The notes beneath the pieces were generated by a model that searched no databases, was not told the origin of the DNA, and worked only from the letters and a program-made list of their open reading frames with translations. Of a stretch of 64,000 bases of DNA, positions 20,586 through 64,000 are shown piece after piece. The stretch comes from Sanderia malayensis (taxonomy: Eukaryota; Cnidaria; Scyphozoa; Semaeostomeae; Pelagiidae): NCBI GenBank assembly GCA_013076295.1, contig RQOL01000861.1, positions 4,194,235 to 4,258,234 on the forward strand. The letters are read 5' to 3'. Made by a program: the position numbers and the translations under genes. Numbering within the stretch: position 1 is the first letter of the stretch; the number at the start of each line of letters is the position of its first letter.

Positions 20586-25470
<4,885 letters not shown>

Positions 25471-39000: not shown

Positions 39001-42000
39001 TAAGCAGTAGAATAGCAGAAGAACAGGGAGGGCTGTCGCAACCATCCATGCCCTCCGTAGCGCCCCCTATGGACTTTCGTCACCTTTTGTCCCCAATGAT
39101 ATTTTTATTTTTTTCTTGGGTAAGGTTTGAATGTGAACACACAAACTGGATACTTTATTTCCAAGGTCTTCATTTTCTGTATAGCTTAGCCTCCAATAGC
39201 CTAATCGCTTTTATTTATAGAATGAAATATATTTGCATAAAATACATATAACCTTGAGAGTCAATGATAACAGTGATAATATAAGCAATGGTGCTGATAG
39301 AAGAGAAGAAATATGTTGTCTTCGGAGCACTAAATGTTGAATATCTTGATTTTTGTGCTCTAAACCTGACTTTGATTGTCTCATTTCACAGCCACTTGCA
39401 GCCCGGCTTGCACAAACAAAGGTGAATGTCGAAATGGAACTTGCATCTGTCCCACTGGATTTACCGGGATCGATTGCTCCAAAGGTAAATCTTATGTTAG
39501 TCTTCTTTTGTGACATTGTTGTGTGCAGACTCTCAGCTTTAAATCTTGCCACAGACTTGGTGAGGTTGTTTGCTTTCCTAGTTTGTCAAGCTTTTCTAGC
39601 TGTTTTTAGTGCCACGTTGCTATCTATTGAATAAAACATGGCAAACAATAGAATGCTTTTCATTCTATTTTGATTTCTTAACAACCATTCTATTCGCAGT
39701 GGCTTGCGTACCAGACTGTCAAAATAATGGAGTATGCGTGAATGGTGTGTGCAGCTGTACAATTTATTACGAAGGCAAATCTTGTGAAACACGTAAGTCT
39801 AACTATGAAATTCATATGCAGCACCTGATGTTCGCACAACCCCTTACTCTCACAGAGAGTTGTTCCGTATGGACCTCAAGGAATATTTCGCAATAACATT
39901 GAAACTGTTGCAAATTTGTTATAATTTCTTGCAATTATCATTATTATTATTAACTTTGCAGCAAAATGCCAAACACCTTGTGCCAATAGTGGCACTTGCA
40001 CAAACCCATACAAAAACACTTGCAACTGTACGCAAGGTTGGGCAGGACAAACGTGCACAAAATGTAAGTATTTGACTAGTAACATTGAGTATTGGATTGG
40101 TAACATTTAGCATTGGATTCCCCCTAATACAACTATTCAATTCTAGAACCATTGCAATCTTTGTCTTCCTCTTTCCTCCTTCTGCCCTACCCTGTCTTTT
40201 AAACCTTCATTTCATTGTAATTATAACGTTTCTATGTTACAGCTATTTGCAAGGAACCTCTCTATTGCAAGCACGGAGGAACGTGTCACGATTGGGACAA
40301 ATGCACATGTCCCATAGCTTACAGAAGCGCCGCTAGTCCACAGTGTCAGACTTGTAAGTACTATCACATTACCGTATATAACCAGGAAACATCTGTTCGT
40401 AGGAAGGGAGTGGGGCCTTTGTGCGTGTTTTGAATAATTTCCTGTTTTTTGCAGCAAACTGCGAGCCTGATTGTGGCATTGGAGGAACTTGCACACTCAA
40501 TGTTACCACGTTTGCTTACTCGTGTAAATGCAAAACTGGATACACAGGAGCTGATTGCAAGAAAGGTGCATGCTTAATTCGTATTTATTCTATGCAGCTA
40601 TGAATTGCGGTCAGCTAAGTTTTAACGAACATTTCAATGAACCTTTGCTTTAGCAAGTTGACAATACATATTTTATTTTATGGTCTTATTCAAGATTCTT
40701 CATTCTAGGATTCTATTCTACTAGCTAAATGTTGTGAAGATTCTTGCATTGAAGCTCTTAATTTTTGAATTTTGTAGAAAATAAATGCGCCATGCCGAAA
40801 GATACAGGCATTTGCAAGCTGTATCTCGACGAAGTGCTGACATTATCAAAGTCGAATGCACTGTCGTGGTCAGAGGAGCCAGTTGCCAAGAAATATTGCT
40901 TGGACTATCTGCAACTCGTGTCTAATAACATCCAGACCACTGATGGCAGGTTCTCATACACGCAGTGTTTGGGGTACTGTGGTACGTATTTCGGTTGTGA
41001 TGTTTGAACTAGTTATTAGTGGTATGTTGTTAGCACTGGATCATACACCTCAAGATACAACTCCAACTACTGTGTGGCAGTTAAATTTCATACGAAGCTA
41101 CTGTAACTGTGCATATGTAAATGAATCGGTTCAAAAGCACTTAGGCTGATATTTCTACTCAAAACAATAGAATAAATAGTAGCCTATTGTGTTTGAACAA
41201 TAGGCTGGATGCAGAATCTGCATGTTTTTATCTGCTGGTTTTTACTATGTTAGTAATTTGAGGTTAATCAATATGGGGTTTTTTGTTTGATATATCTTTG
41301 CATCAACTGGTTGCATGAACCTGCAACAGTTGATGCTTGCTTCAAGTTATCTACTGTTTAAAACGTGATTATATTTACATGGTTAATATTTCTGACTTTT
41401 TGTCAATCGATAGATACGAGCAAAACTGCAAAGGTTTGTGACAGAATATGGAAGCCAGAGACGTTGCATCTCAATTGTGAAGGCCACCAAAGATTCTACT
41501 ATGCAGGTGGCAAATGCCAAGCAATGGCATACAAAGGAGGACTTGGTAACAAGAATAACTTCAAAGACGTATCCTCATGCACGCAAAGTTGTACATGTAA
41601 GTATGCCGTATTGGTTGCTCGACCTTCGTGTATGCACCAGTTTAACATGACGTGGTTGTGCTATTGAGCAACTGAAAGTATATACAGTTGTACTTCAACA
41701 AGTCGAACATCCATGGGAATGAGGATTTCGTTCGAGTTGACGAGAGCCCAAGTTATCAAGGGAGGCGGCAAATCAAATATTTAAGAGAGACATATTTAAG
41801 TTGGACACATCAAAGAATTAGACTTATGAATAATCTTCATTAATTGCTGTTGTTTTTGCATTTCAGATACGAAGCCTACAATATCTTCGACTGTCGTTCC
41901 AGTATTAGCACCATGTAAGCTCGTTATTTAGTTTGTCCGTGGTTTCAATAGAGCATGTTATCTGACACTAGCTTGTCAGTTGTTTCAGTATGGTTTAGTA

Positions 42001-45000
42001 AGCGTACCATACTGACAATCCCCGTGTTGCAAATTATAATGCCGCGACTAATACAACGTAAAGTACGAACAAAAATGAAACATTAACAAGCACTAAACTT
42101 TAGATTGGCGATGTTCATCGTAATATCCACCGATTTGGTTTCAATTACAGTTAATAACACGTGTTACGTGTGGGGCAGACAGCACTACGCCACCTTCGAT
42201 GGCAAAATGTACGACTACTATGGAACGTGCTCCTACATCCTCATACACGACAAGGAGCCGACATCCACGTTTCAGGTTGTCGTTGTCAATGATAAGAACT
42301 GCAACTACAACGCAACGTGTAATCGAAAGCTGAAGATCACGGCCGATAGCAAGAAGATCTATCTCGGTCAGAAAACAAGTATCGGTGGTGAAGATGTCTA
42401 TGCTGTCAAGGTTGATGACAAGATTGTAGATCTGCCATACACGGGGGTGCCAAGGATTAAAGTGGTACGTATGCTTTGATTGTGTCTTTATAGGTCGGGG
42501 GGTTTAGTGTATGTGAATTACTCTTTTATGTTAGGGATACGTTGTGAGTTAAGTTTACAAATGTTGGTCTGATTCAAACCTACCTGGGATAAAAAGAGTT
42601 TGCTGCTACCGATTCTCGTGTAACGGAGAGCGATTTTAGGACTTGCAGGGGAAGGAATAGAGTTTGAGGGAATCGAGTTGCTTTCCGAACCTGTTTCTAA
42701 TTGGGAATTTTCATTTTTTTGTCCTTTCCGTTTGCTAGCTATCTCTTACTGAGATATAGACATGTAGTTAACCATACAAGGATTACTAACCAGTGGAACA
42801 TAGTTAACCATGCAAGGATTGCTAACTCTTCATCATTTTCTCGCTCTGTGTTGTTGAACCAGCAATCTAGCACTACAACAGTATCTTTTGTTGAATCACG
42901 AGGATGTAATTGCGTTTTCCTTTGTGTTTTAGGCCGGTCGCTACGTGATGGTGATTACGCAAGAGAATGCTATTATTTATTGGGATGGTGTGGAAGACGT
43001 GATGATAAAAGTACCAGATAGCTTTAAGTCGTCGTCGGAATCGAACCACCGACTGTTCGGTCTCTGCGGCACATTCGACGGCAATAAAGACAACGATTTT
43101 GTTGGCATTGACGGAGTAGCAGTTGCAAAGACAAACGACTTTGCAAAGAAATGGGTGTCGGAGACGAGCTGCGCCGAAACGTCACTTGCCGTACCTCCTT
43201 ACTACTCGCCAACAGGCAGTAACGAAAAGGCCATTCTCAAAGCTGAAGAACTATGCAGTGTGATTCAAACTGCACCATTCTCGCCCTGCTTTCCCCACAT
43301 ATTGACTGCGGGTTACAAGAAACTCTGCATGAAAGACGTGTTGCTGTGCAATTATGACCTGAGACGCGATTGCGTTTGCAATGCTCTCTCGCTTTACTCA
43401 AGGGCATGTCAACTGCAGAAGAACATCACGTTGAGCTGGAGAAGTGCAGCGCTTTGTCGTAAGTATTTCCTCTCGTTTACATTTGTTCTGGTGTTCTTTT
43501 CATGTCGTCAGGGCACAAGCACTCCGTCATTTGCAAGTCTAGTTGGCATTTTTGTATGTCTGTTATTCATTTGTTTTATACGACGAGTGATTGAGAAATG
43601 CAAAAGTATATAGTGATGAGTGAGAAATACAAAAGTATAAAATATAATAGTGCTGTACAAAAGACAATGAAAGCTTTATATTACTTATTAGTTTAACATG
43701 TTATATTGCTTATGAGAAGTACCTCAGGTACACACTCCACATGCTATACACTGAAGAACAGACACTTTCAGCCAACCATCTATTTAGAATGTTATCTTGA
43801 GGCATGTTATTCTCGCATGCCTTTGAGAGTTTATCACAGACCATAGAGATAGGATAAATAAGTATATATCCTATCTCTATGTCACAGACAGAATTTAGAC
43901 TCGCTACATTGCGTCCCTGTGCTTTGCTCGTTTTTGCCCAGCTCAAATAAGGAGCTGCTCCTGTTTTGAACGGAGAAAAACGACACAGGTACTCAAAGCA
44001 GTACGTCTAGACAGAATAAAATTGCAGTGAAGTGAACATGATGATATTGCTGCTAATGTGGTTTTTTCACCCATTCTAGCTGCCAAGTGCTCTGGCAATA
44101 TGGTATACAAGGAATGTGGCAGTGCGTGCCCAAAGACCTGCTCGAATCTGCTGTCGATAAATACCGAGAAGACGTGCGTTTCGAAATGCGTCGATGGGTG
44201 CAACTGCGCTGACAATTTGTGGAGAGATAATAACAAGTGTGTGCCACAGTCTGAGTGCTCCTGTTACGTGGACAACGTCAGATATCCACACGGAACAACG
44301 AAGAAAACTGCTTGCGAAGACTGGTGAGTGTGTATATTTACACATTATTAACTACCACCAGCTTTGATGTGGACCATTAAAGGTGGGTGGAACTGAGTAA
44401 AAGCGATTATTCATTTTTATTTCAGCATGTGTACTGGTGGCTTATGGAGCTGTAAGCGCAAGCCTTGCTCAGGTATGTAGCATTGCATTGAGCACCGAAT
44501 CGTGTATAGTCTATTTTACTGTCTATCCTTGCCTGGCTGAGCATTATGATGTGAATTCCTTTTCTTTTCTTAGCTACATGTTCTGTTGTTGGCGATCCAC
44601 ACGTGCGTACATTCGACGGCAAGACCTACTCCATGTACGGTAAATGCGCGTACACGCTGGCCGAGCATTGCCATTACGACAACGCAACGGGTAAACAGTG
44701 GGAACTGATCGTTAAGAACTCCGACTGCACGGACAACGTGGGCGGATTCGCGTCGTGTACACGATCTTTGATATTGAAATTGTTGAAGACGAACACGGTG
44801 TTCTCGCTCTCCTCGTCGCAGGGCAGCAACGGACAGCGCCTTCCCAACGTGCAGGTTGATGGACGAGAAGAAAACTGGGCGAAAACCGACAAGTACACGG
44901 TTGAACGTGTCGGAAAAGAGAACGTTGTCATCACAGCTTCACTCGGCCTGAGGATTTTGTGGACCGGTCGCAATGTTTACTTCACAGTCGGACCGAACTA

Positions 45001-48000
45001 CGAGAACAAGACCTGTGGTCTATGCGGCACGTTCAACTTCAACATTCAGGATGATTTTCACACGAAAGCTGGAACTACCGAGGTGTCAGTATTCTCCTTC
45101 AGCAAGCACTGGATATTCAAGGATTCCAACATCAATGATGTTGCCACGTGTCACAAGAACGACTGGGAACAGAACGGTTCACCTTGTGACATTTACACGT
45201 CTAAGGCGTCGTTCGCCTCGCAACAGTGTAGCATCATTACTTCGACAACAGGGCCGTTTAAGTACTGTCATTCGGTCATAACACCGACCGATTTCTACAA
45301 GATCTGCCGTGACGATGGCTGCAAGTGCACCGACTGCTACTGCGATGTGATTTCCAGCTATGCGAAGATGTGTACCGACAAGGGTATCTCTGTTGGCGAT
45401 TGGAGAAGCCAGAGGCCTTCTTGCTCGAAGCGTAAGTTTATCTTTGCTTTTTGTCATGCTCAGATTTCATATTCAATGTCATCATGACCAGTTTGTCATA
45501 CGTTTGCAGCTAATACATCGTTACACTTTTCTAATTATCAAAAGGCCATGAGGGCGTTGTAGAAATGAAATGATCATTTTGCGTCATATGTCAATGCGGG
45601 TTTTAATCTCCCAATTCAGAAGCGCAATGTTTCAGTTTCTCAAGAACTTGAATAGAATAACAGAAATTGCTCTGGGCTTTTCTTAAAGGCCTTGGAATTT
45701 TGTTTCAGTTGCGTGATATCTGTGTACTGTATTTATGTGCTTGGTTTTTTGTTTTTTCAGAAATGCAATGTGCAGCTCCCAGAATCCGCAAGCAATGTTA
45801 CAAGAACACCAAAGGCGTCTTAAAGTGTCCACAAACGTGCAGAGATATTTCATCGAACAGCACTTCCAGCTGCGTGAAGTAAGTCGATCTTTTGACCCCA
45901 TCCTACCCCCATTTTGGCAGATTGTACTAACCTTAACTATACTGATAAACTCACTATGTACATTATAAATGTGATTAATATTCAGTGGATTTGGGTGGAG
46001 TGGGGAGTTACCTGTTTATTACTAGATTAGTTAGCATTTGTTGTTTGTTTTCCCACTGGGACTCTTTCAATAATCTATTGTTCGCCAATGGCCAATGATT
46101 GGCCAATTTCGATCCTCTTCTGGGTATAATTGTTCGTTAGGTTTTCATTTTCGTTCTCTTTCTGACGTACTACTCTGATGAGTGTCCGACGAAAAGCTTT
46201 AGTATTTACTATGTTTCGCCATGTTTCCGATTTTAAAAGCAATTTTGAAGTTCTGTACCGATCAAAGAGAGTAGTTAGCATTATACGTATCTGTTCAGTT
46301 ATTTGTAATACCGTTATTTTTTCTCCACAGGCGTGGCTGCATCGAAGGATGCTACTGTCCTGATGGATACTACGAGAATAGCAAGCAGGAGTGCGTGCCT
46401 CAGAAGAGCTGTCCATGCTACCATAACAACATCGTTTATTCGTATGGTGCTGTGAGAAAGGAGAAGTGCAACAATTGGTATGATCTACGTTTCCCCATGT
46501 TGCGTGATGCGCTTTATACAGTATCATTATACTGTGATATGGTTTGAGTTAAGTGACTTTGTGTTCCTTGCATTTCAGTACCTGTATTGGCGGTGTTTTC
46601 CAGTGTACCAAAGTGAACTGCATAGGTGAGTGGAGTTTGTAAGCAAATCCAAATCCTGCCTATCTAATGTCTTTATTGCCTTCAGTAACACATTTCGTAA
46701 TGTGTTACACCCAAGTGCCATAATATAGGAGTACTGTAAACCTCCTGTAACACGAGCATTAACGTAAATTATCATTTCATTGCTGTTGCTTTTTATCAAA
46801 GAACACTGTAAAAGGCAAGGCCTGGAGTACAATGACTGTGGAATGACGTGCAATAATTTCAAGGATGACCCTCGCACATGCTCACCAGGCTGTTACTGTA
46901 AAGACGGACTTGCATTACACGAAAATGGAACTTGCGTCAACCCTGCTATTGGCTGCCAGTGCAAAGAAGGCGACAATTACTACGATAGAGGTGTCATTTC
47001 ACCATCTGATTGTTCCAGGTAAGGCAATGCTGCTGATGTTTTTATTGATTGTGGTGAGTTTGCACAGTAATGGATGAGGATCGGTCGTGAATCACAGAAA
47101 GTAAATGCTTGATATTGCTAGGTGGACATTCTGGATGGACTTTTAAGCAGCGAAGGGAGTTCTGTTAGAGTAATTTCTGGCCCTTTACAGGCTGGCTTTG
47201 AAATGTATAGAAATTCAATTCCAGCTTTCAATTTTTAGATGAAAATTCAGTGATGATAGACATTCATTTGTTGTCATTTTAGATCATTGTTCAATGTTGA
47301 TAGACTTTCGTTTTTAGTGATTTTAGATCAATGTTTAATTTTGATAGACATTCATTTCTAGTCATTTTAGATCTATGTTCAATGTTTATAGACATTCATT
47401 TTAGCCCTGTACTGATATAACCTGACACGAACACTCATTGATATCACTTTATTTGTTTTCACAAGGAAATGTCGTGGAGATCGTGAATGGAAGAAGCTGT
47501 CTGGTGTCGACGCGAAGCCTCAATACGACTGCGCAGCCTTCGGACAGCTACATTACCGGTCGTTTGACGGACGAATGTTTAAGTTCGACGGTCAGATGTG
47601 CGAGTACGTGCTCATGACAGACTGTCACCACGACCCCACAAATAAGATGTGCAACATGGAGAAAGCAAACATCAACATCAAAGTGAAAAACGTTTACTGT
47701 GTCAACAGCTACGAGCAGTACATTTGCAAGCAAGTCACCATTGAGGTGAAACAACCTGACGGATCCATGGCAAAGGTCGTGCTCAAGCAAAAGGAGGCTC
47801 ATCTCACATACGGATCGACAACGAAGGTGTTCAAGACTGGCAATTACCCACAGCCTCGTACTGATGCTGGCGGTGGCTTCGAAATATTCAAGGTCAGCTT
47901 GTTTTTTCTGATTGCATTAGTCACATTCACAAAGTTTGTTTGTTTCGTGTGCTGATTTAAAGAGGTTTCTAGTGCTTCTTGTTTATCTTAACAGCATACA

Positions 48001-51000
48001 TTTGATTCTTTTAGATGGGTGTTTATTTGTTCGTACGGGCCTATCATCTTGGCTATACGGTGAAGTTCGATCAGTCATCACGTGTCTACATTATTCCACC
48101 GAAGTCATCTTTCACTAAGGGCTATCTGGCTGGTTTGTGCGGTGACTACAATGGAAAAGACGATGATGATTTTAAAAAACCTGACCTGTCTATGGCAGAC
48201 AATGCTCTGAAATTTGCAAAGTCCTGGGGTGATCAGACAGGTGCATGCGCAGAACCTACTAACACAGACACGTGTGCCACCAACGCCTTCAGAAAACCAT
48301 GGGCAACAAAAGGTGGGAGTAGAAAAAATTAAAAATTGTTATAAAAATAAATATTGCCTCTCGTTTAGTTGATTGTTTGAGAATAAATGTACCGATTAAC
48401 CTTGTGGACCGTTGCATGTATAACGGATGCATGTATACTCAATATATACATCCATTACTTCAACTCCAATCATTTTGCAAATAGGATATGCAGTGAGTAT
48501 GCCTGTGAATTGCTGTTTCAGGTTGCAATGTCATGAAGTCAGGTAACTTTACCGCTTGCCACAAAGCCATTTCACCAGATTCCTACATCGAGGCGTGCCA
48601 ACAGGAGACCTGTCTTTGCAAATTTGGTGGCGACTGTGCCTGCTTCTGCTCGGCCGTTGGTGCCTACGTGCAAGAATGCAACCGAATTGGAATACCAGTC
48701 TACTGGAGAAGGGATGGACTTTGTCGTGAGTATCTTGAACATGTTCTCAGGTTAGAAAAATGAAATGAGACTGAGTATTCAAACACGAGACACAACAAAC
48801 AAGTACAAGATCAAGCCTATTGTCTGCTGCTCATAACATTATGTAGCGAGAAGAAATGTTTGCGAAATTACATGAAATAAAAACTGTCTTCTTTTTACTT
48901 CACAGAACTTGATTGCTGTGATCCATGCAATCACACATACGGATATTATCCTGACAACGTTGTGCCAGAGACCTGCGGCAAGACGAAGCCGGTTTGTACT
49001 TCAGATGAAAGATGCTGCAAAGGTCCAGTCGTGGAAGGTTGCGGATGTCCTTCAGGAACCTATGACAATGGCAAAAAGTGCATGAACATAACGGACACTG
49101 ATGTTATTCCATGTACGTCAACAGTTAGGACAACTACAGTGATATCGTCAAGCCCACTTCCCACTACATCTGCATACACCATCACAACTACCTCGATACC
49201 AACTACAAGCGTATCTATTCCAATATCATCATCGCTATTTGTATCATCCAAATCCAGTGTCGTCACTAGCTCAAGCACGCCATTGTCCTCACTTAAGACC
49301 ACATCAGTAGTGAAGTCAGTCAGCACAAGTACATATATTGCTCCACCACCAACAACATCGATTGTCAAGTCAGTCAGCACAAGTACATATATTGCTCCAC
49401 CACCAACAACATCGATTGTGAAGTCAGTCAGCACAAGTACATATATTGCTCCACCACCAACAACATCGATTATCAAGTCAGTGAGCACAAGTACATATAT
49501 TGCTCCACCTCCAACAACATCGATTGTCAAGTCAGTCAGCACAAGTACATATATTGCTCCACCTCCAACAACATCGATTATCAAGTCAGTCAGCACAAGT
49601 ACATATATTGCTCCACCACCAACAACATCGATTGTCAAGTCAGTCAGCACAAGTACATATATTGCTCCACCACCAACAACATCGATTGTCAAGTCAGTCA
49701 GCACAAGTACATACATTGCTCCACCACCAACAACATCGATTGTCAAGTCAGTGAGCACAAGTACATATATTGCCCACCACCAACAACATCGATTATCAAG
49801 TCAGTGAGCACAAGTACATATATTGCTCCACACCAACAACATCGATTATCAAGTCAGTGAGCACAAGTACATATATTGCTCCACCTCCAACAACATCGAT
49901 TGTCAAGTCAGTCAGCACAAGTACATATATTGCTCCACCACCAACAACATCGATTGTGAAGTCAGTCAGCACAAGTACATATATTGCTCCACCACCAACA
50001 ACATCGATTGTCAAGTCAGTGAGCACAAGTACATATATTGCTCCACCTCCAACAACATCGATTGTCAAGTCAGTGAGCACAAGTACATACATTGCTCCAC
50101 CACCAACAACATCGATTGTCAAGTCAATCAGCACAAGTACATATATTGCTCCACCACCAACAACATCGATTGTCAAGTCAGTCAGCACAAGTACATACAT
50201 TGCTCCACCACCAACAACATCGATTGTCAAGTCAGTCAGCACAAGTACATATATTGCTCCACCACCAACAACATCGATTGTCAAGTCTGTCAGCACAAGT
50301 ACATATATTGCTCCACCACCAACAACATCGATTGTCAAGTCAGTGAGCACAAGTACATATATTGCTCCACCACCAACAACATCGATTGTCAAGTCAGTGA
50401 CCACAAGTACATATATTGCTCCACCTCCAACAACATCGATTGTCAAGTCAGTGAGCACAAGTACATATATTGCTCCACCACCAACAACATCGATTATCAA
50501 GTCAGTGAGCACAAGTACATATATTGCTCCACCACCAACAACATCGATTGTCAAGTCAGTGAGCACAAGTACATATATTGCTCCACCACCAACAACATCG
50601 ATTATCAAGTCAGTGAGCACAAGTACATATATTGCTCCACCACCAACAACGTCGATTGTCAAGTCAGTGAGCACAAGTACATATATTGCTCCACCTCCAA
50701 CAACATCGATTGTCAAGTCAGTGAGCACAAGTACATATATTGCTCCACCACCAACAACATCGATTATCAAGTCAGTGAGCACAAGTACATATATTGCTCC
50801 ACCACCAACAACGTCGATTGTCAAGTCAGTGAGCACAAGTACATATATTGCTCCACCTCCAACAACATCGATTGTCAAGTCAGTCAGCACAAGTACATAT
50901 ATTGCTCCACCACCAACTACACCTGTAAGTTTTATTACATTTTTTAGCAAGAATTTGTTTCTTATTTCTTACTCTACCAACTTCGATGATCATTTCAATT

Positions 51001-54000
51001 TTGATAGTTACATATTTTTTATCATTCCATTGCAACATTTATTAATATTTTTATATGTTTATGTATACTGCTTTCTGATGTGTTTCATAAATTAATGTTA
51101 AAGTTATTACCTGAATTTTTCCCCCAATCTATTTAGCTGCATTGTTAATAATTGCTATTATTGCGTGTCTTTAGAAGAATACCATACTTTTGAGAAATGA
51201 TTTGGTTTCCGCAGGCTGTTGCCAACAGTGGCCCTTATCGTCTTACTAACTTAATTGAACCTCTTGTGTTTTTCTCCTAATTTTTTTACTTTTCTGATGT
51301 AGGTATCTACGAAGTCGAAATTTTCGTCTACAAATTTGCCAACTTCCTCATTTACCCCAAGTTTATCGGTATGTTTACTTTTTATAAGTTAATCCTCTTG
51401 AGCAAAAATATTCCAGTTATGATTGTATTAAATGATTTATTTTAAGTTTGTTGAAAACTGTGCTCTTGTACTCTTTCCTTTCTATTAAAAATGAATTGTG
51501 TTTCCACCATACGTCTTTTCATGGACGCAATTTTTTCCTTATTTCTTTCATTCTTGATTCAGCCACTTATTCTCATCATTATCTTTTGATACCCAGACCT
51601 CGGAATCGTTTACTTCAGTAACTTACAGACTCAAGACCCATACATCTCAAACTGTTCTTACTAAACCATACGAGAGTTACACAACATTCACACCTGGAAC
51701 ATCCAAAAAGTTTAATCCATCAGTAACACCGACTGTTTCGAAATCGTCAAGACCTTTCCGTTCAAGAAGCAAGACAACGGTATTTTTTTTGCATTTCTTT
51801 AGAAACTATGTTTTTGTTGTTCTTTGTGTTTTCACTTTTCGCAATATATTTACATTAATTTTTTTTCTGACACTTTACGATCCTAGTTTTTTAGTAAAAA
51901 ACCTTATTGTTATTTCAGCATCGGTCAATTGCATCAAGCCATTTTACAACAGAAAGTATTGAAACAAAACCTACTACATCACGTTTTACGCATAAGCTTA
52001 AACCATCAAGCAGCTATGTTATCCCACCCGGAACAAAATCGACTGTTAAGTCAGTGAGCACAAGTACATACATTGCTCCACCACCAACAACATCGATTGT
52101 CAAGTCAGTCAGCACAAGTACATACATTGCTCCTCCTCCAACAACATCGATTGTCAAGTCAGTCAGCACAAGTACATATATTGCTTCACCACCAACAACA
52201 TCGATTGTCAAGTCAGTCAGCACAAGTACATACATTGCTCCTCCTCCAACAACATCGATTGTCAAGTCTGTCAGCACAAGTACATATATTGCTCCACCAC
52301 CAACAACATCGATTGTCAAGTCAGTAAGCACAAGTACATACATTGCTCCTCCTCCAACAACATCGATTGTCAAGTCAGTCAGCACAAGTACATATATTGC
52401 TCCACCACCAACAACATCGATTGTCAAGTCAGTCAGCACAAGTACATATATTGCTCCACCACCAACAACATCGATTGTGAAGTCAGTCAGCACAAGTACA
52501 TACATTGCTCCTCCTCCAACAACATCGATTGTCAAGTCTGTCAGCACAAGTACATATATTGCTCCACCACCAACAACATCGATTGTCAAGTCAGTAAGCA
52601 CAAGTACATACATTGCTCCTCCTCCAACAACATCGATTGTCAAGTCAGTCAGCACAAGTACATATATTGCTCCACCACCAACAACATCGATTGTGAAGTC
52701 AGTCAGCACAAGTACATACATTGCTCCTCCTCCAACAACATCGATTGTTAAGTCTGTCAGCACAAGTACATATATTGCTCCACCACCAACAACATCGATT
52801 GTCAAGTCAGTAAGCACAAGTACATATATTGCTCCACCACCAACAACATCGATTGTCAAGTCAGTCAGCACAAGTACATATATTGCTCCACCACCAACAA
52901 CATCGATTGTGAAGTCAGTCAGCACAAGTACATACATTGCTCCTCCTCCAACAACATCGATTGTGAAGTCAGTCAGCACAAGTACATACATTGCTCCTCC
53001 TCCAACAACATCGATTGTCAAGTCAGTCAGCACAAGTACATATATTGCTCCACCACCAACAACATCGATTGTCAAGTCAGTCAGCACAAGTACATACATT
53101 GCTCCTCCTCCAACAACATCGATTGTCAAGTCTGTCAGCACAAGTACATATATTGCTCCACCACCAACAACATCGATTGTCAAGTCAGTAAGCACAAGTA
53201 CATACATTGCTCCTCCTCCAACAACATCGATTGTCAAGTCAGTAAGCACAAGTACATACATTGCTCCTCCTCCAACAACATCGATTGTCAAGTCTGTCAG
53301 CACAAGTACATATATTGCTCCACCACCAACAACATCGATTGCCAAGTCAGTAAGCACAAGTACATACATTGCTCCTCCTCCAACAACATCGATTGTCAAG
53401 TCAGTAAGCACAAGTACATACATTGCTCCTCCTCCAACAACATCGATTGTCAAGTCAGTCAGCACAAGTACATATATTGCTCCACCACCAACAACATCGA
53501 TTGTGAAGTCAGTCAGCACAAGTACATACATTGCTCCTCCTCCAACAACATCGATTGTGAAGTCAGTCAGCACAAGTACATACATTGCTCCTCCTCCAAC
53601 AACATCAATTGTCAAGTCAGTCAGCACAAGTACATACATTGCTCCACCACCAACAACATCGATTGTCAAGTCAGTCAGCACAAGTACATATATTGCTCCA
53701 CCACCAACAACATCGATTGTCAAGTCAGTCAGCACAAGTACATATATTGCTCCACCACCAACAACATCGATTGTCAAGTCAGTGAGCACAAGTACATACA
53801 TTGCTCCACCACCAACAACATCGATTGTCAAGTCAGTCAGCACAAGTACATATATTGCTCCACCACCAACAACATCGATTGTCAAGTCAGTCAGCACAAG
53901 TACATATATTGCTCCACCACCAACAACATCGATTGTCAAGTCAGTCAGCACTAGTACATATATTGCTCCACCACCAACAACATCGATTTTGAAGTCAGTC

Positions 54001-57000
54001 AGCACAAGTACATATATTGCTCCACCACCAACAACATCGATTGTCAAGTCAGTCAGCACAAGTACATACATTGCTCCTCCTCCAACAACATCGAATGTGA
54101 AGTCAGTAAGCACAAGTACATATGTTGCTCCTCCTCCAACAACATCAGTTGTCAAGTCAGAGCAAAGTACATACATTGCTCCTCCTCCAACAACATCGAT
54201 TGTCAAGTCAGATCAGCACAAGTACATATTGCTCCACCACCAACAACATCGATTGTCAAGTCAGTCAGCACAAGTACATATATTGCTCCACCACCAACAA
54301 CATCGATTGTGAAGTCAGTCAGCACAAGTACATATATTGCTCCACCACCAACAACATCGATTGTCAAGTCAGTCAGCACAAGTACATATATTGCTCCACC
54401 ACCAACAACATCGATTGTCAAGTCAGTCAGCACAAGTACATACATTGCTCCTCCTCCAACAACATCGATTGTCAAGTCAGTCAGCACAAGTACATATATT
54501 GCTCCACCACCAACAACATCGATTGTCAAGTCAGTCAGCACAAGTACATACATTGCTCCACCACCAACAACATCGATTGTCAAGTCAGTCAGCACAAGTA
54601 CATATTGCTCCCCCAACAACATCGATTGTCAAGTCAGTCAGCACAAGTACATACATTGCTCCCACCAACAACATCGATTGTCAAGTCAGTCAGCACAAGT
54701 ACATATTGCTCCACCACCAACAACATCGATTGTCAAGTCAGTCAGCACAAGTACATATTGCTCCACCACCAACAACATCGATTGAAGTCAGTCAGCACAA
54801 GTACATATTGCTCCACCACCAACAACATCGATTGTCAAGTCAGTCAGCACAAGTACATATATTGCTCCACCACCAACAACATCGATTGTCAAGTCAGTCA
54901 GCACAAGTACATACATTGCTCCCCCAACAACATCGATTGTCAAGTCAGTCAGCACAAGTACATATTGCTCCACCACCAACAACATCGATTGTCAAGTCAG
55001 TCAGCACAAGTACATATATTGCTCCACCACCAACAACATCGATTGTCAAGTCAGTCAGCACAAGTACATATATTGCTCCACCACCAACAACATCGATTGT
55101 CAAGTCAGTCAGCACAAGTACATACATTGCTCCACCACCAACAACATCGATTGTGAAGTCAGTCAGCACAAGTACATACATTGCTCCACCACCAACAACA
55201 TCGATTGTGAAGTCAGTCAGCACAAGTACATATTGCTCCACCACCAACAACATCGATTGTCAAGTCAGTCAGCACAAGTACATACATTGCTCCCCACCAA
55301 CAACATCGATTGTCAAGTCAGTCAGCACAAGTACATATATTGCTCCACCACCAACAACATCGATTGAAGTCAGTCAGCACAAGTACATACATTGCTCCAC
55401 CACCAACAACATCGATTGTCAAGTCAGTCAGCACAAGTACATACATTGCTCCACACCAACAACATCGATTGTCAAGTCAGTCAGCACAAGTACATACATT
55501 GCTCCTCCACCAACAACATCGATTGTCAAGTCAGTCAGCACAAGTACATACATTGCTCCACCACCAACAACATCGATTGTCAAGTCAGTCAGCACAAGTA
55601 CATACATTGCTCCACCACCAACAACATCGATTGTCAAGTCAGTCAGCACAAGTACATATATTGCTCCACCACCAACAACATCGATTGTCAAGTCAGTCAG
55701 CACAAGTACATATATTGCTCCCACCAACAACATCGATTGTCAAGTCAGTCAGCACAAGTACATATATTGCTCCACCACCAACAACATCGATTGTCAAGTC
55801 AGTCAGCACAAGTACATATATTGCTCCACCACAACAACATCGATTGTCAAGTCAGTCAGCACAAGTACATATATTGCTCCACCACAACAACATCGATTGT
55901 CAAGTCAGTCAGCACAAGTACATACATTGCTCCACCACCAACAACATCGATTGTCAAGTCAGTCAGCACAAGTACATACATTGCTCCTCCTCCAACAACA
56001 TCGATTGTGAAGTCAGTCAGCACAAGTACATACATTGCTCCACCACCAACAACATCGATTGTCAAGTCAGTGAGCACAAGTACATATATTGCTCCACCAC
56101 CAACAACATCGATTGTCAAGTCAATCAGCACAAGTACATATATTGCTCCACCACCAACAACATCGATTGTCAAGTCAGTCAGCACAAGTACATACATTGC
56201 TCCACCACCAACAACATCGATTGTCAAGTCAGTCAGCACAAGTACTTATATTGCTCCACCACCAACAACATCGATTGTGAAGTCAGTCAGCACAAGTACA
56301 TATATTGCTCCACCACCAACAACATCGATTGTGAAGTCAGTCAGCACAAGTACATATATTGCTCCACCTCCAACAACATCGATTGTCAAGTCAATCAGCA
56401 CAAGTACATATATTGCTCCACCACCAACAACATCAATTGTGAAGTCAGTCAGCACAAGTACATATATTGCTCCACCACCAACAACATCGATTGTGAAGTC
56501 AGTCAGCACAAGTCATACATTGCTCCACCACAACAACATCGATTGTAAGTCAGTCAGCACAAGTACATATATTGCTCCACCACCAACAACATCGATTGTC
56601 AAGTCAGTAAGCACAAGTACATACATTGCTCCACCACCAACAACATCGATTGTGAAGTCAATCAGCACAAGTACATATATTGCTCCACCACCAACAACAT
56701 CGATTGTGAAGTCAGTCAGCACAAGTACATATATTGCTCCACCACCAACAACATCGATTGTCAAGTCAGTCAGCACAAGTACATACATTGCTCCACCACC
56801 AACAACATCGATTGTGAAGTCAGTCAGCACAAGTATATATATTGCTCCACCACCAACAACATCGATTGTCAAGTCAGTCAGCACAAGTACATACATTGCT
56901 CCTCCCCCAACAACATCGATTGTCAAGTCTGTCAGCACAAGTACATACATTGCTCCACCACCAACAACCCCTGTAAGTTTTATTACATGTGGTTTCTGCT

Positions 57001-60000
57001 AACAAAATTTTTTGTTTGTTTGTTAGTCTACCAATATCCATCTTTCTTATTCCGTTTGATGTTATTTGATTTTCTATCCTTTGAATGCCACGTTTCTTAA
57101 TCTGGCTTACACTTCCAGGTTTCCTCCTTTTCTAATATATACTATAAACTAATTTAAAGTTATAAACTTGATTTTGTTTTGTAATCTGTTCAGCTGCATT
57201 AGCAATAACTGCTATTACCACGTGTCCTCTGAAGAACTCCTTACTTTTGGGAAAGAAGTTTGTTTCTGGAGGCTGTTGCCAACAGTTGCTTTTAGTTGCC
57301 TCGTAACTCAATTAACCCCTTTTGTGCTTTTTCCTTTATTTATTTTTTTTTTTTTGATAGGTATCTACAAAGTCGAAATTTTCGTCTACAATTTTGCCAA
57401 GTTCTTCATTTACCCCAAGTTTATCGGTTGGTTTACTTTTATAATTTTTCTGCCATTAAAAAATAATTTCCATTTATGATTGTATATATTGATGTATTTC
57501 AATTTTGTCGAAAACTGCACTTTTATTCCTTTTCCTTCCTCTCAAAAAGGAATAGTGTTTTACGGCAAATTTTTTCATAGGTATAATTTGTTTAATTATT
57601 TAATTTTTCATTTTATAGTTAAATCCTTTTTGATTTATACTTATTTAAAATCATATTCCATTGTGATTTAATTCTTGATTGCTTATTTAAATTATTATCT
57701 TTTTTCATCCAGACCTCGGAATCGTTTACTTCAGTAACTTACAGACTCAAGACCCATACATCTCAAACTGTTCTTACTAAACCATACGAGAGTTACACAA
57801 CATTCACACCTGGAACATCCAAAAAGTTTAATCCATCAGTAACACCGACTGTTTCGAAATCGTCAAGACCTTTCCGTTCAAGAAGCAAGACAACGGTATC
57901 TTTTTGCATTTCTTTAGAAACTATGTTTTTGTTGTTCTTTGTGTTTTCACTTTTCGCAATATATTTACATTAATTTTTTTTCTGACACTTTACGATCCTA
58001 GTTTTTTATTATATCCTTATTGTTATTTCAGCATCGGTCAATTGCATCAAGCCATTTTACAACAGAAAGTATTGAAACAAAACCTACTACATCACGTTTT
58101 ACGCATAAGCTTAAACCATCAAGCAGCTATGTTATCCCACCCGGAACAAAATCGACTGTTAAGTCAGTGAGCACAAGTACATACATTGCTCCACCAACAA
58201 CAACAACGATTGTGAAGTCAGTCAGCACAAGTACATATATTGCTCCACCACCAACAACATCGATTGTCAAGTCAGTCAGCACAAGTACATACATTGCTCC
58301 TCCTCCAACAACATCGATTGTCAAGTCAGTAAGCACAAGTACATACATTGCTCCACCACCAACAACATCGATTGTCAAGTCAGTCAGCACAAGTACATAC
58401 ATTGCTCCTCCTCCAACAACATCGATTGTCAAGTCAGTCAGCACAAGTACATACATTGCTCCACCACCAACAACATCGATTGTCAAGTCAGTAAGCACAA
58501 GTACATATATTGCTCCACCACCAACAACATCGATTGTCAGGTCAGTCAGCACAAGTACATACATTGCTCCTCCTCCAACAACATCGATTGTCAAGTCAGT
58601 GAGTACAAGTACATATATTGCTCCACCACCAACAACATCGATTGTCAAGTCAGTCAGCACAAGTACATATATTGCTCCACCACCAACAACATCGATTGTC
58701 AAGTCAGTCAGCACAAGTACATATATTGCTCCACCACCAACAACATCGATTGTCAAGTCAGTCAGCACAAGTACATACATTGCTCCACCTCCAACAACAT
58801 CAATTGTCAAGTCAGTCAGCACAAGTACACATATTGCTCCACCACCAACAACATCGATTGTCAAGTCAGTCAGCACAAGTACATACATTGCTCCACCTCC
58901 AACAACATCAATTGTGAAGTCAGTCAGCACAAGTACATATATTGCTCCACCACCAACAACATCGATTGTGAAGTCAGTCAGCACAAGTACATACATTGCT
59001 CCTCCTCCAACAACATCGATTGTCAAGTCAGTCAGCACAAGTACATATATTGCTCCACCACCAACAACATCGATTGTCAAGTCAGTCAGCACAAGTACAT
59101 ACATTGCTCCTCCTCCAACAACATCGATTGTCAAGTCAGTCAGCACAAGTACATACATTGCTCCACCTCCAACAACATCAATTGTCAAGTCAGTAAGCAC
59201 AAGTACATATATTGCTCCACCACCAACAACATCGATTGTGAAGTCAGTAAGCACAAGTACATACATTGCTCCTCCTCCAACAACATCGATTGTCAAGTCA
59301 GTCAGCACAAGTACATATATTGCTCCACCACCAACAACATCGATTGTCAAGTCAGTCAGCACAAGTACATATATTGCTCCACCACCAACAACATCGATTG
59401 TCAAGTCAGTCAGCACAAGTACATACATTGCTCCTCCTCCAACAACATCGATTGTCAAGTCAGTCAGCACAAGTACATATATTGCTCCACCACCAACAAC
59501 ATCGATTGTCAAGTCAGTCAGCACAAGTACATACATTGCTCCTCCTCCAACAACATCAATTGTGAAGTCAGTCAGCACAAGTACATATATTGCTCCACCA
59601 CCAACAACATCAATTGTCAAGTCAGTAAGCACAAGTACATATATTGCTCCACCACCAACAACATCGATTGTCAAGTCAGTCAGCACAAGTACATATATTG
59701 CTCCACCACCAACAACATCAATTGTCAAGTCAGTAAGCACAAGTACATATATTGCTCCACCACCAACAACATCGATTGTCAAGTCAGTCAGCACAAGTAC
59801 ATATATTGCTCCACCACCAACAACATCGATTGTCAAGTCAGTCAGCACAAGTACATACATTGCTCCTCCTCCAACAACATCGATTATCAAGTCAGTCAGC
59901 ACAAGTACATATATTGCTCCACCACCAACAACATCGATTTAAGTCAGTCAGCACCAAAATCTCCACCAACAACATCGATTGTCAAGTCAGTCAGCACAAG

Positions 60001-63000
60001 TACATACATTGCTCCCCACCAACAACATCGATTGTCAAGTCAGTCAGCACAAGTACATATATTGCTACACCAACAAATCGATTGTCAAGTCTCCACATCT
60101 ACTCCAACAACATCGATTGTCAAGTCAGTCAGCACAAGTACATATATTGCTCCACCACCAACAACATCGATTGTCAAGTCAGTCAGCACAAGTACATATA
60201 TTGCTCCACCACCAACAACATCGATTGTCAAGTCAGTCAGCACAAGTACATATATTGCTCCACCACCAACAACATCGATTATCAAGTCAGTCAGCACAAG
60301 TACATATATTGCTCCACCACCAACAACATCGATTGTCAAGTCAGTCAGCACAAGTACATACATTGCTCCTCCTCCAACAACATCGATTATCAAGTCAGTC
60401 AGCACAAGTACATATATTGCTCCACCACCAACAACATCGATTGTCAAGTCAGTAAGCACAAGTACATACATTGCTCCTCCTCCAACAACATCAATTGTCA
60501 AGTCAGTAAGCACAAGTACATATATTGCTCCACCACCAACAACATCGATTGTCAAGTCAGTCAGCACAAGTACATATATTGCTCCACCACCAACAACATC
60601 GATTGTGAAGTCAGTCAGCACAAGTACATACATTGCTCCTCCTCCAACAACATCGATTGTCAAGTCAGTCAGCACAAGTACATACATTGCTCCACCACCA
60701 ACAACATCGATTGTGAAGTCAGTCAGCACAAGTACATATATTGCTCCACCACCAACAACATCGATTGTCAAGTCAGTAAGCACAAGTACATATATTGCTC
60801 CACCACCAACAACATCGATTGTCAAGTCAGTAAGCACAAGTACATACATTGCTCCTCCTCCAACAACATCAATTGTCAAGTCAGTAAGCACAAGTACATA
60901 TATTGCTCCACCACCAACAACATCGATTGTCAAGTCAGTCAGCACAAGTACATATATTGCTCCACCACCAACAACATCGATTGTGAAGTCAGTCAGCACA
61001 AGTACATACATTGCTCCTCCTCCAACAACATCGATTGTCAAGTCAGTAAGCACAAGTACATATATTGCTCCACCACCAACAACATCGATTGTGAAGTCAG
61101 TCAGCACAAGTACATACATTGCTCCTCCTCCAACAACATCGATTGTCAAGTCAGTCAGCACAAGTACATACATTGCTCCACCACCAACAACATCGATTGT
61201 GAAGTCAGTAAGCACAAGTACATACATTGCTCCACCACCAACAACATCGATTGTGAAGTCAGTAAGCACAAGTACATACATTGCTCCACCACCAACAACA
61301 TCGATTGTGAAGTCAGTCAGCACAAGTACATACATTGCTCCACCACCAACAACATCGATTGTGAAGTCAGTCAGCACAAGTACATACATTGCTCCACCAC
61401 CAACAACATCGATTGTGAAGTCAGTAAGCACAAGTACATACATTGCTCCACCACCAACAACATCGATTGTCAAGTCAGTCAGCACAAGTACATACATTGC
61501 TCCACCACCAACAACATCGATTGTGAAGTCAGTCAGCACAAGTACATATATTGCTCCACCACCAACAACATCGATTGTCAAGTCAGTAAGCACAAGTACA
61601 TATATTGCTCCACCACCAACAACATCGATTGTCAAGTCAGTCAGCACAAGTACATATATTGCTCCACCACCAACAACATCAATTGTCAAGTCAGTAAGCA
61701 CAAGTACATATATTGCTCCACCACCAACAACATCGATTGTGAAGTCAGTCAGCACAAGTACATACATTGCTCCACCACCAACAACATCGACTGTCAAGTC
61801 TGTCAGCACAAGTACATATATTGCTCCACCACCAACTACATCGATTGTCAAGTCAGTGAGTACAAGTACATACATTGCTCCACCACCAACAACATCGATT
61901 GTGAAGTCAGTAAGCACAAGTACATACATTGCTCCACCACCAACAACATCGATTGTGAAGTCAGTAAGCACAAGTACATACATTGCTCCACCACCAACAA
62001 CATCGATTGTGAAGTCAGTCAGCACAAGTACATACATTGCTCCACCACCAACAACATCGATTGTGAAGTCAGTAAGCACAAGTACATATATTGCTCCACC
62101 ACCAACAACATCGATTGTCAAGTCAATCAGCACAAGTACATACATTGCTCCTCCTCCAACAACATCGATTGTCAAGTCAGTCAGCACAAGTACATATATT
62201 GCTCCACCACCAACAACATCGATTGTGAAGTCAGTCAGCACAAGTACATACATTGCTCCTCCTCCAACAACATCGATTGTCAAGTCAGTCAGCACAAGTA
62301 CATACATTGCTCCACCACCAACAACATCGATTGTGAAGTCAGTAAGCACAAGTACATACATTGCTCCACCACCAACAACATCGATTGTGAAGTCAGTAAG
62401 CACAAGTACATACATTGCTCCACCACCAACAACATCGATTGTGAAGTCAGTCAGCACAAGTACATACATTGCTCCACCACCAACAACATCGATTGTGAAG
62501 TCAGTCAGCACAAGTACATACATTGCTCCACCACCAACAACATCGATTGTGAAGTCAGTAAGCACAAGTACATACATTGCTCCACCACCAACAACATCGA
62601 TTGTCAAGTCAGTCAGCACAAGTACATACATTGCTCCACCACCAACAACATCGATTGTGAAGTCAGTGAGCACAAGTACATATATTGCTCCACCACCAAC
62701 AACTTCCATTGTCAAGTCAGTCAGCACAAGTACATACATTGCTCCACCACCAACAACATCGATTGTGAAGTCAGTAAGCACAAGTACATACATTGCTCCA
62801 CCACCAACAACATCGATTGTGAAGTCAGTCAGCACAAGTACATACATTGCTCCACCACCAACAACATCGATTGTGAAGTCAGTAAGCACAAGTACATACA
62901 TTGCTCCACCACCAACAACATCGATTGTCAAGTCAGTCAGCACAAGTACATACATTGCTCCACCACCAACAACATCGATTGTGAAGTCAGTCAGCACAAG

Positions 63001-64000
63001 TACATATATTGCTCCACCACCAACAACATCGATTGTGAAGTCAGTGAGCACAAGTACATATATTGCTCCACCACTAACAACTTCCATTGTCAAGTCAGTC
63101 AGCACAAGTACATATATTGCTCCACCACCAACAACATCGATTGTCAAGTCAGTCAGCACAAGTACATATATTGCTCCACCACCAACAACATCGATTGTGA
63201 AGTCAGTGAGCACAAGTACATATATTGCTCCACCACTAACAACTTCCATTGTCAAGTCAGTAAGCACAAGTGCATACATTGCTCCACCACCAACAACATC
63301 GATTGTGAAGTCAGTCAGCACAAGTACATATATTGCTCCACCACCAACAACATCGATTGTCAAGTCAGTCAGCACAAGTACATACATTGCTCCACCACCA
63401 ACAACATCGATTGTGAAGTCAGTCAGCACAAGTACATATATTGCTCCACCACCAACAACATCGATTGTCAAGTCAGTAAGCACAAGTACATACATTGCTC
63501 CACCACCAACAACATCGATTGTGAAGTCAGTCAGCACAAGTACATATATTGCTCCACCACCAACAACATCGATTGTCAAGTCAGTTAGCACAAGTACATA
63601 CATTGCTCCACCACCAACAACATCGATTGTCAAGTCAGTCAGCACAAGTACATACATTGCTCCACCACCAACAACATCGATTGTGAAGTCAGTCAGCACA
63701 AGTACATATATTGCTCCACCACCAACAACATCGATTGTCAAGTCAGTCAGCACAAGTACATATATTGCTCCACCACCAACAACATCGATTGTGAAGTCAG
63801 TCAGCACAAGTACATATATTGCTCCACCACCAACAACATCGATTGTGAAGTCAGTCAGCACAAGTACATACATTGCTCCTCCTCCAACAACATCGATTGT
63901 CAAGTCAGTCAGCACAAGTACATACATTGCTCCACCACGAACAAGCTCGTTTGTTGCCCCTCCACCGACGTCCACTTTCGTTCTCCCCCCTGGTACAAGT
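36063..64000 (+). CDS. Giant secreted mucin-like glycoprotein (EGF, Kunitz-like, VWD-C8-TIL, PTS repeats), 3' end off window
   Basis: Exons: 36063-36151, 37640-37686, 37884-37928, 38705-38815, 39392-39484, 39700-39792, 39962-40063, 40243-40353, 40455-40565, 40778-40981, 41414-41596, 41867-41914, 42151-42464, 42933-43458, 44080-44323, 44426-44472, 44574-45431, 45761-45878, 46331-46477, 46579-46625, 46802-47018, 47466-47892, 48015-48312, 48522-48725, 48906-50924, 51303-51368, 51597-51779, 51919-56972, 57361-57426, 57713-57895, 58032 onward. Phases close from the ATG through the exon starting at 48906. Signal peptide about 1-27; residues to about 1693 are Cys-rich modules, the rest Pro/Thr/Ser repeats. 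The plan resembles gel-forming mucins, otogelin and SCO-spondin, so an extracellular gel or matrix role is likely, but no orthologue is recognised. Arrays contain frame-breaking indels. The N-terminal exons before the EGFs are Asp/Glu-rich (DPFDEPEPKPYQQDE and a helical segment LLEKIKLLERQLE). Confidence 0.88.
39392..40565 (+). other. Five EGF-like modules, one per exon
   Basis: Exons 39392-39484, 39700-39792, 39962-40063, 40243-40353 and 40455-40565 each encode one module with phase 1 introns on both sides. The spacing is C-x3-C-x5-C-x4-C-x-C-x8-C or close to it, e.g. ATCSPACTNKGECRNGTC and CICPTGFTGIDC. The fourth is the most divergent (CPIAYRSAASPQC). They occupy about residues 98-267. Confidence 0.9.
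40778..41596 (+). other. Two divergent Kunitz-like modules
   Basis: Exon 40778-40981 starts CAMPKDTGICKLYL, the Kunitz opening pattern, and ends YTQCLGYC. Exon 41414-41596 has the Kunitz second half QRFYYAGGKCQAMAY, NKNNFKDVSSCTQSC, but the Cys of the usual GGC is Leu (KGGLGNKN). Protease inhibition is therefore doubtful. Phase 1 introns flank both. Confidence 0.6.
41181..41206. repeat. Dispersed hairpin repeat, copy 2
   Basis: Second copy of the 9-bp inverted repeat seen at 7413-7438, in an intron of the mucin gene, with flanking similarity on both sides. Confidence 0.7.
42151..43458 (+). other. VWD domain 1 plus C8
   Basis: Two exons joined at phase 0. The first holds CYVWGRQHYATFDGKMYDYY, the VWD start without GDPH; the second holds LFGLCGTFDGNKDNDF and then a C8 region (ELCSVIQTAPFSPC, LCMKDVLLCNYD, DCVCNALSLYSRAC). 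TIL exons follow at 44080-44323 and 44426-44472. Confidence 0.9.
42765..42826. repeat. 26-bp direct duplication, 36-bp offset
   Basis: tagttaaccat.caaggatt.ctaac occurs at 42765-42790 and 42801-42826 with two mismatches, within the intron that splits VWD domain 1. Confidence 0.85.
43842..43881. repeat. Perfect 15-bp inverted repeat (hairpin)
   Basis: catagagataggata (43842-43856) and its exact inverse complement (43867-43881) flank a 10-base AT-rich loop. It lies in the mucin intron between VWD1/C8 and TIL, just before the dispersed repeat at 43897. Confidence 0.9.
43897..43935. repeat. Dispersed repeat shared with 18500-18545
   Basis: Same sense copy of the gactcgctacattgcgtccc / ctgtgctttgctcgt element, with a few substitutions. 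Confidence 0.65.
44574..45431 (+). other. VWD domain 2 plus C8 in one exon, with GDPH
   Basis: A single 858-base exon encodes SVVGDPHVRTFDGKTYSMYG, then TCGLCGTFNFNIQDDF and a C8 (PCDIYTSKASFASQQC, KICRDDGCKCTDCYCD). It is the only one of the three with GDPH, the motif at which some mucin VWD domains self-cleave between Asp and Pro; cleavage here is inference. It also has the full CGLCG. TIL exons follow at 45761-45878, 46331-46477, 46579-46625. Confidence 0.93.
47250..47402. repeat. Degenerate tandem repeat of about 50-60 bp in intron
   Basis: Three to four copies built on gatagacattcattt, gtcattttagat and atgttcaatgtt, before the exon at 47466. Copies differ by substitutions and small indels. 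Confidence 0.8.
47466..48725 (+). other. VWD domain 3 plus C8
   Basis: Preceded by a TIL exon (46802-47018). Exons 47466-47892 and 48015-48312 carry CAAFGQLHYRSFDGRMFKFD and LAGLCGDYNGKDDDDF; exon 48522-48725 carries the C8 (ACHKAISPDSYIEAC, CACFCSAVGAYVQEC). GDPH is replaced by GQLH. The next exon opens with a Cys-rich stretch (LDCCDPCNHTYGYY ... CCKGPVVEGCGCPSG) before the PTS region. Confidence 0.9.
49301..50924 (+). repeat. 54-bp coding tandem array A, about 30 units
   Basis: Each unit encodes STSTYIAPPPTTSIVKSV (11 of 18 residues Pro/Thr/Ser). Units vary mainly at silent sites (tat/tac, cca/cct, gtc/gtg/gta) and at SIV/SII. The array ends in PPPTTP at a GTAAGT donor. Two single-base losses, near 49772 and 49829, shift the frame by a net two bases. 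Confidence 0.97.
51303..51779 (+). other. Cassette exons, copy 1 (22- and 61-codon PTS exons)
   Basis: Exons 51303-51368 (VSTKSKFSSTNLPTSSF...) and 51597-51779 (TSESFTSVTYRLKTHTSQ...) are both phase 0 with good splice sites and link arrays A and B. They are Ser/Thr-rich but not built of the 54-bp unit. Confidence 0.8.
51919..56972 (+). repeat. Leader plus 54-bp coding array B, about 91 units
   Basis: The exon begins with a 40-codon leader (HRSIASSHFTTESIETKP ... YVIPPGTKS) and from about 52038 holds roughly 91 units. The frame is intact to about 54150, then broken repeatedly to about 55900 by losses such as tatata to tata and ccaccacc to ccacc, then open again to the PPPTTP donor at 56972. 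Entry and exit frames differ by one base. Confidence 0.93.
57361..57895 (+). other. Cassette exons, copy 2
   Basis: Exons 57361-57426 and 57713-57895 duplicate 51303-51368 and 51597-51779. The 61-codon exon is identical base for base; the 22-codon exon has several changes (NLPTSS to ILPSSS) and a weaker donor, GTTGGT instead of GTATGT. Confidence 0.8.
58032..63938 (+). repeat. Leader plus 54-bp coding array C, about 107 units
   Basis: Same 40-codon leader as array B, then about 107 units from 58151. The frame is broken in a damaged patch at 59935-60115 and is then free of frame-changing indels to the end. After 63938 the repeat gives way to related PTS sequence (APPRTSSFVAPPPTSTFVLP) continuing past the window. 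Confidence 0.95.

Follow-up and report, generated by a model that had tools for sequence, protein, structure and literature searches.

What kind of protein, if any, is specified by the long 54-bp tandem repeats at the right-hand end of a 64,000-nucleotide stretch of jellyfish DNA (hereafter the window)? On the evidence set out below, these repeats very probably form the PTS (mucin) domain of a gel-forming mucin that is secreted and polymerises, in a cnidarian that is most probably the scyphozoan Sanderia malayensis.

Four arrays of one unit in a single gene

Tandem Repeats Finder called the 54-bp unit at 49313-56968, 58145-60091 and 60104-63944, the first of these rows spanning arrays 1 and 2 together with the intervening introns; array limits and unit counts were taken from a wraparound alignment, exon by exon. 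Array 1 (49313..50921, + strand, as are all features of the gene in the window) holds 29.8 units of 54 bp, in an exon that ends at 50924 with a GTAAGT donor. The array-2 exon (51919..56972) carries 92.2 units at 52024-56968, and the array-3 exon (58032..64000), which runs on to position 145 of the DNA just past the window edge (L009), carries 108.4 units at 58137-63954. Together these amount to 230.4 units and 12,372 bases, in good agreement with the roughly 228 copies in three arrays and 12.3 kb of coding sequence that a first-pass annotation, limited to the window, had proposed. A fourth array of 42.1 units (L009:1003-3276) lies beyond the window edge and was hence invisible to that annotation; it raises the total to about 272 units (272.5) as assembled, a count to be read with the proviso that assembly may collapse or expand long arrays. 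The first-pass annotation also assigned the arrays to one gene, which is correct, but they are separate exons, with introns and small linker exons between them.

The scale of the tandem array in both analyses rules out a chance periodicity. Exact copies of the unit are not dispersed elsewhere in the genome: a search of the 184.0-Mb assembly (918 contigs), in which the window occupies G000:C815:4194235-4258234, with an exact 26-base probe from the unit gave 124 matches. All of them fall within this gene, the window containing 109 and L009 the other 15. Long higher-order repeats were likewise rejected, the longest letter-for-letter shared run being eight units and the sole run of at least five.

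The repeat is translated and its peptide is constrained

The peptide proposed earlier for the unit, STSTYIAPPPTTSIVKSV, is encoded exactly by 213 of the 243 complete units that lack an indel. Eight of its 18 residues are Ser or Thr (44%) and three are Pro (17%), so that Pro, Thr and Ser make up 61%, and all repeats together contain about 2,180 Ser/Thr. A single Lys and a single Tyr occur per unit, acidic residues are absent, and the computed pI is about 10.

From the roughly 272 units, 268 complete ones were tabulated; the selection count rests on the 243 that are free of indels, and the remaining 25, which bear indels, were counted apart. The 243 units represent 74 DNA sequences but 17 peptides, and stops occur in none of them. 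In the mucin frame, 398 of their 429 substitution cells are synonymous, compared with 20 and 6 of the same cells in the other forward frames and 18, 206 and 11 in the reverse frames. When each distinct variant is counted only once, 22 of 39 are synonymous, against 11.9 ± 2.35 expected when the changes are distributed over sites that carry the same base (P 5e-5, 20,000 draws). Given this synonymous excess and the predominance of one identical peptide, we conclude that the repeat is read in the mucin frame and that purifying selection acts on it. Homogenisation alone is insufficient as an explanation, since the DNA varies silently around a fixed peptide, and a non-coding or antisense satellite can be dismissed because even the best reverse frame reaches only 206 synonymous cells. 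PTS domains are usually described as fast-evolving.

Gene anatomy

The exon model was drawn manually on GT/AG splice sites, with phase as the test. Between 38705 and 50924 it has 22 exons that can be joined in a single frame containing just one stop, at 49805, which falls between the two 1-base deletions of array 1. Upstream, a candidate signal-peptide exon (36063..36151; MQDRKSFVLAVLCLIVLATSNKWAGTQAK) has a GTAAGA donor after it; it does not connect in phase with the next modelled exon, and its assignment is therefore tentative. That next exon (38705..38815) ends in a dibasic KR and precedes five EGF-like exons (39392..40565), counted by eye from their cysteines, which share a common entry intron phase and match Pfam EGF_TEN (8e-34, three stretches). 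A cysteine-containing exon (40778..40981) gave no Pfam match at E<=1, and a Kunitz/BPTI exon (41414..41596; Pfam Kunitz_BPTI 1.4e-8) follows. The D1 assembly (42151..44472) consists of VWD with FGLCG, C8 and TIL, and the D2 assembly (44574..46625) of VWD with an intact CGLCG, C8 and TIL. A D'-like exon (46802..47018), assigned by position and by cysteines read by eye, stands before the D3 assembly (47466..48725), which has VWD with AGLCG and C8 with GGDCACFC; a 44-bp repeat in 3.8 copies (47233-47401) occupies the intron ahead of the D3 exons. The array-1 exon starts (48906..49312) with TIL-like cysteines, again recognised by eye, and a non-repeated Ser/Thr/Pro-rich stretch.

Arrays 2, 3 and 4 are each preceded by a 66-nt exon, a 183-nt exon and a lead-in within the array exon, all in phase 0, so that duplication of such a cassette would leave the reading frame intact. 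Cassette A (51303..51779) comprises exons 51303-51368 and 51597-51779, cassette B (57361..57895) exons 57361-57426 and 57713-57895, and cassette C lies beyond the window. Over the stretch that starts a little ahead of the 183-nt exon and reaches the array, with the intron counted in, identity among the three cassettes is 92-97%, which points to duplication of blocks made up of an array plus its cassette; around the 66-nt exon, cassettes A and B are 77% identical and cassette C has no match. After array 4, the C-terminal exons remain open up to a stop at L009:6149 and encode a Ser/Thr-rich exon, a VWC-like part (assigned by its cysteines, with no Pfam call), a cystine knot (CTCK) and a tail. 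A cystine knot normally ends proteins of this type; here about 75 residues with the dibasic sites KTKR and RKRR run on to the stop, and they are possibly a cleaved tail.

A probable gel-forming mucin

In MUC2, MUC5AC and MUC5B, VWD-C8-TIL assemblies stand ahead of a large PTS region of tandem repeats, and a CTCK lies at the C-terminus; the same three modules are found here. For the D1-D2-D'-D3 part, the N-terminal protein has three VWD stretches (8e-73), three C8 stretches (4e-41) and two TIL stretches (9e-13) above the Pfam cut-offs. The PTS part is the array itself, with its Pro/Thr/Ser-rich units and in-frame synonymous excess. The C-terminal protein matches Cys_knot (5.3e-7) and, where it aligns with the CTCK of VWF (E 0.0013), retains 10 of 10 cysteines. 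The earlier description of the locus as a mucin is thus upheld by what surrounds the arrays: three VWD-C8 assemblies with TIL parts on the N-terminal side and a cystine knot on the C-terminal side.

The CGLCG motif belongs to D assemblies of gel-forming mucins, and it is present here only in D2. In D3 the C8 retains GDCACFC, and the second Cys of this motif is aligned to position 1099 of the VWF-XTEN-Fc chain 7kwo; that position is Ala in 7kwo and Cys in other VWF chains. We take position 1099 to be one of two interchain cysteines in the D3 of VWF, the other being 1142, the equivalent of which falls outside the aligned part of D3.

In the PDB, D2-D3 matches IgGFc-binding protein, MUC2, MUC5B, VWF and MUC5AC, with whole-sequence E-values of 1e-102 to 1e-110 for the vertebrate gel-forming mucins. 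An IgGFc-binding protein or SCO-spondin-like protein is the best PDB match and also the best (29% identity) of 16 matches to D2-D3 in a large protein database, in a search whose size limits left full-length mucins outside. The CTCK and the giant PTS region fit mucins better than they fit IgGFc-binding or SCO-spondin-like proteins. There are also differences from MUC2, MUC5AC and MUC5B: EGF-like and Kunitz domains stand at the N-terminus here, and the repeat unit is unrelated. The PTS region is split over four exons by linker cassettes, whereas in MUC5AC and MUC5B it is described, in excerpts of one report, as large central exons (PMC10983947). The same excerpts allow a rough comparison of diversity, with 130 8-mer peptides and 211 24-mers for MUC5AC in 206 human haplotypes (PMC10983947), as opposed to 17 peptide and 74 DNA types in the single haplotype here.

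Frameshifts in the assembled arrays

The reading of the arrays as coding sequence has to contend with the fact that the frame, although translated as judged from the synonymous excess, is not continuous in the assembly. Arrays 1 to 3 contain 36 indel events, 33 of them frameshifting and 35 of them deletions, and array 4 contains none; three in-frame 3-base insertions at the 5' edges of arrays 2, 3 and 4 are omitted from this count. Besides the two 1-base deletions in array 1, there are 23 events at 54160-56546 in array 2 and 11 at 59938-60101 in array 3, the latter including losses of 5 and 14 bases. These two regions are the chief clusters, and the indels as a whole occupy 9 of 31 500-bp bins where 21.5 ± 1.8 are expected (none of 20,000 draws was as low). 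Taken literally, the sequence loses its frame in arrays 1, 2 and 3, as it would if the gene were a recent pseudogene or null allele with a protein ending inside array 1 or 2. We consider this highly improbable. Array 4, the splice sites and the downstream exons are intact, the 6,521 bases of single-copy exon in the gene are open throughout in one frame, substitutions in the arrays are overwhelmingly synonymous, and the indels are clustered and almost all of one kind.

A second giant mucin-like gene provides an internal control. It lies at G000:C405:5062001-5092000 (L014-L016) and has VWD-C8 parts, an array of 244 copies of a 45-bp unit encoding TTTTKPSTQPPSTTA, and, after it, LDLa, TIL, VWC and F5/8C domains. 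This second array is likewise full of frameshifts, with 65 frameshifting indels over its whole length, and 57 of its 68 events are deletions, compared with 35 of 36 here, so that the error spectrum is similar, not identical. The frameshifts in arrays 1 to 3 are therefore most likely assembly errors. If the assembly is that of S. malayensis, it was built from PacBio reads with FALCON, and indels were corrected with Pilon and a 500-bp Illumina library, according to excerpts of its description (PMC7305137); such short reads were presumably not uniquely placeable in these arrays. Units bearing indels show no excess of substitutions (26 in 1,273 bases, against 429 in 13,122 in intact units). Their non-synonymous share (7 of 26 in the 25 units, against 31 of 429) exceeds what pure indel error would leave, although misalignment of ruined units could supply some of it. 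The deletions at 59938-60101 could be a misjoin or a real lesion.

Ordered fibre or sticky protein?

The first-pass annotation had suggested that the repeat forms a regular fibre. An ordered beta-solenoid or cross-beta fibre could be imagined from the composition, V, I or Y making up 28% of the unit, and AlphaFold2, run without an alignment on 12 units, places two strands in every 18 residues (pLDDT 64, pTM 0.46). An out-of-frame decoy of the same DNA, CQVSQHKYIYCSTTNNID, however, scores higher (pLDDT 89, pTM 0.84), that is, the program is more confident on a meaningless frame than on the real one. The beta prediction therefore carries no weight, the beta-solenoid obtained from AlphaFold2 was dismissed and the suggestion of a regular fibre is left unsupported. 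A bias of AlphaFold2 for perfect repeats has been reported in the excerpted text of PMC11795689. Glycosylated Ser/Thr and PPP would in addition oppose packing, and we regard a fibre of this kind as very improbable.

It could also be that the gene encodes a bioadhesive or structural secretory protein of the Mlig-ap or Sfp1 type, in which VWD, TIL, EGF and Kunitz domains accompany a long basic repeat whose Tyr and Lys stick or crosslink. In excerpts of their description, the flatworm protein Mlig-ap1 combines VWD-C8-TIL with 17 EGF modules and regions that are strongly basic, and in Mlig-ap2 VWD and TIL are accompanied by 46 repeats in the centre (PMC6410801); the basic, acid-free unit with its single Lys and Tyr would suit such a protein. 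Gel-forming mucins nevertheless have just this succession, from three VWD-C8 assemblies through PTS and a VWC-like part to CTCK, and the repeat is dominated by Pro, Thr and Ser. As a separate class the adhesive seems quite improbable, but the two readings are compatible, because a sticky mucin would be both. In a related proposal, the unit would be a sequence-specific glycan carrier and not a loosely constrained one, its fixed Tyr, Lys and hydrophobic pairs, maintained by purifying selection, giving a cationic, cohesive or crosslinkable mucin in which the backbone, and not only the glycans, sets the properties of the slime; we think this rather unlikely.

Comparison with other animals

The gene type is well known, and the 18-residue repeat looks new. 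Three strings of the unit had no match in the text of 5.39 million papers. A 1,267-residue array piece had none in a database of 5.8 billion proteins, where scoring covered the 7,989 candidates with the most words in common with it, these being proteins of 0.55-1.75 times the query length, a range outside which full-length mucins fall. Within that scope, the search called for by the first-pass annotation agrees with its statement that no named mucin has this unit. Gel-forming mucins with the same module set have been reported from single-cell data in placozoans, a cnidarian and a ctenophore (PMC11452194), and partial mucin5B-like sequences in Actinia (PMC9080433). These share their module set with the present gene; the excerpted text of the two reports is without the present repeat. 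The only named jellyfish mucin found in our literature search is qniumucin, of moon jellyfish and Nomura's jellyfish, and in a mucus proteome paper on Aurelia the word 'mucin' occurs once, in a reference. Qniumucin resembles the present protein in being a monotonous scyphozoan mucin repeat with Thr and Pro, but its unit is described in the excerpts of PMC2801673 as 8 residues, VVETTAAP or VIETTAAP, with Glu, as against 18 residues and a basic character here.

Other loci were noted in passing. About 120 kb upstream, at G000:C815:4070567-4071010 (L018), is a gene with a VWD domain and, by eye, C8, TIL and VWC-like stretches, which we read as a BMPER/crossveinless-type protein. Within the window, ORFs resembling ABC transporter exons, by eye only, lie on the minus strand at 942-8073, a short AACCCT run is found at 1362, and a 144-bp unit with telomere-like ACCCTA runs is present in 4.4 copies at 19214-19853. 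The first exon of a PAK4/5/6-type kinase, PBD domain included, lies at 20586-21746; its part 20586-21503 is identical to one EukProt protein, and among the 120 of 308 matches listed the next proteins stand at 43-80%, the closest from named animals being those of Hydractinia (46%) and Hydra (41%).

Proposed assembly and glycosylation of the protein

The behaviour of MUC2, MUC5B and VWF serves as the model for how the protein would work, and expression, glycosylation, disulfide polymerisation and a tissue role are inferred from it by analogy. Chains would dimerise in the ER via the C-terminal cystine knot, and the D1-D2-D'-D3 part would pack and link the dimers by D3 disulfides in the Golgi. GalNAc-transferases would O-glycosylate Ser/Thr of the repeats, and the chain of about 7,200 residues (the sum of the modelled pieces) would swell into slime once secreted. 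To judge from composition, dense O-glycosylation of the repeat is plausible. A sequence pattern which we take to be the polypeptide GalNAc-transferase motif was found at five loci in the genome and at none in reversed controls, and the enzymes of O-glycosylation are on this basis probably present; four of the five loci lie within about 3 kb of a same-strand Ricin_B match. The Ricin_B family itself, with 73 matches in the genome, was rejected as a marker of these enzymes for lack of specificity. Clusters of Ricin_B-lectin matches on contigs C836, C699, C858, C829, C392 and C765, many of them in open frames about 400-480 residues long that score equally or almost so, suggest an expanded lectin family.

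Significance

Both giant arrays examined are full of frameshifts, and gene prediction may thus mis-call the largest mucins of this assembly. What sets the present gene apart is the strict constraint at the protein level, the four-exon cassette layout and the EGF-Kunitz N-terminus. As 213 of its 243 intact units encode one and the same peptide while the DNA varies silently, selection acts on the repeat sequence itself, and the array offers a clear test case for which features a mucin repeat must retain. If expressed, the gene would join qniumucin as a candidate for what forms the backbone of slime in scyphozoans.
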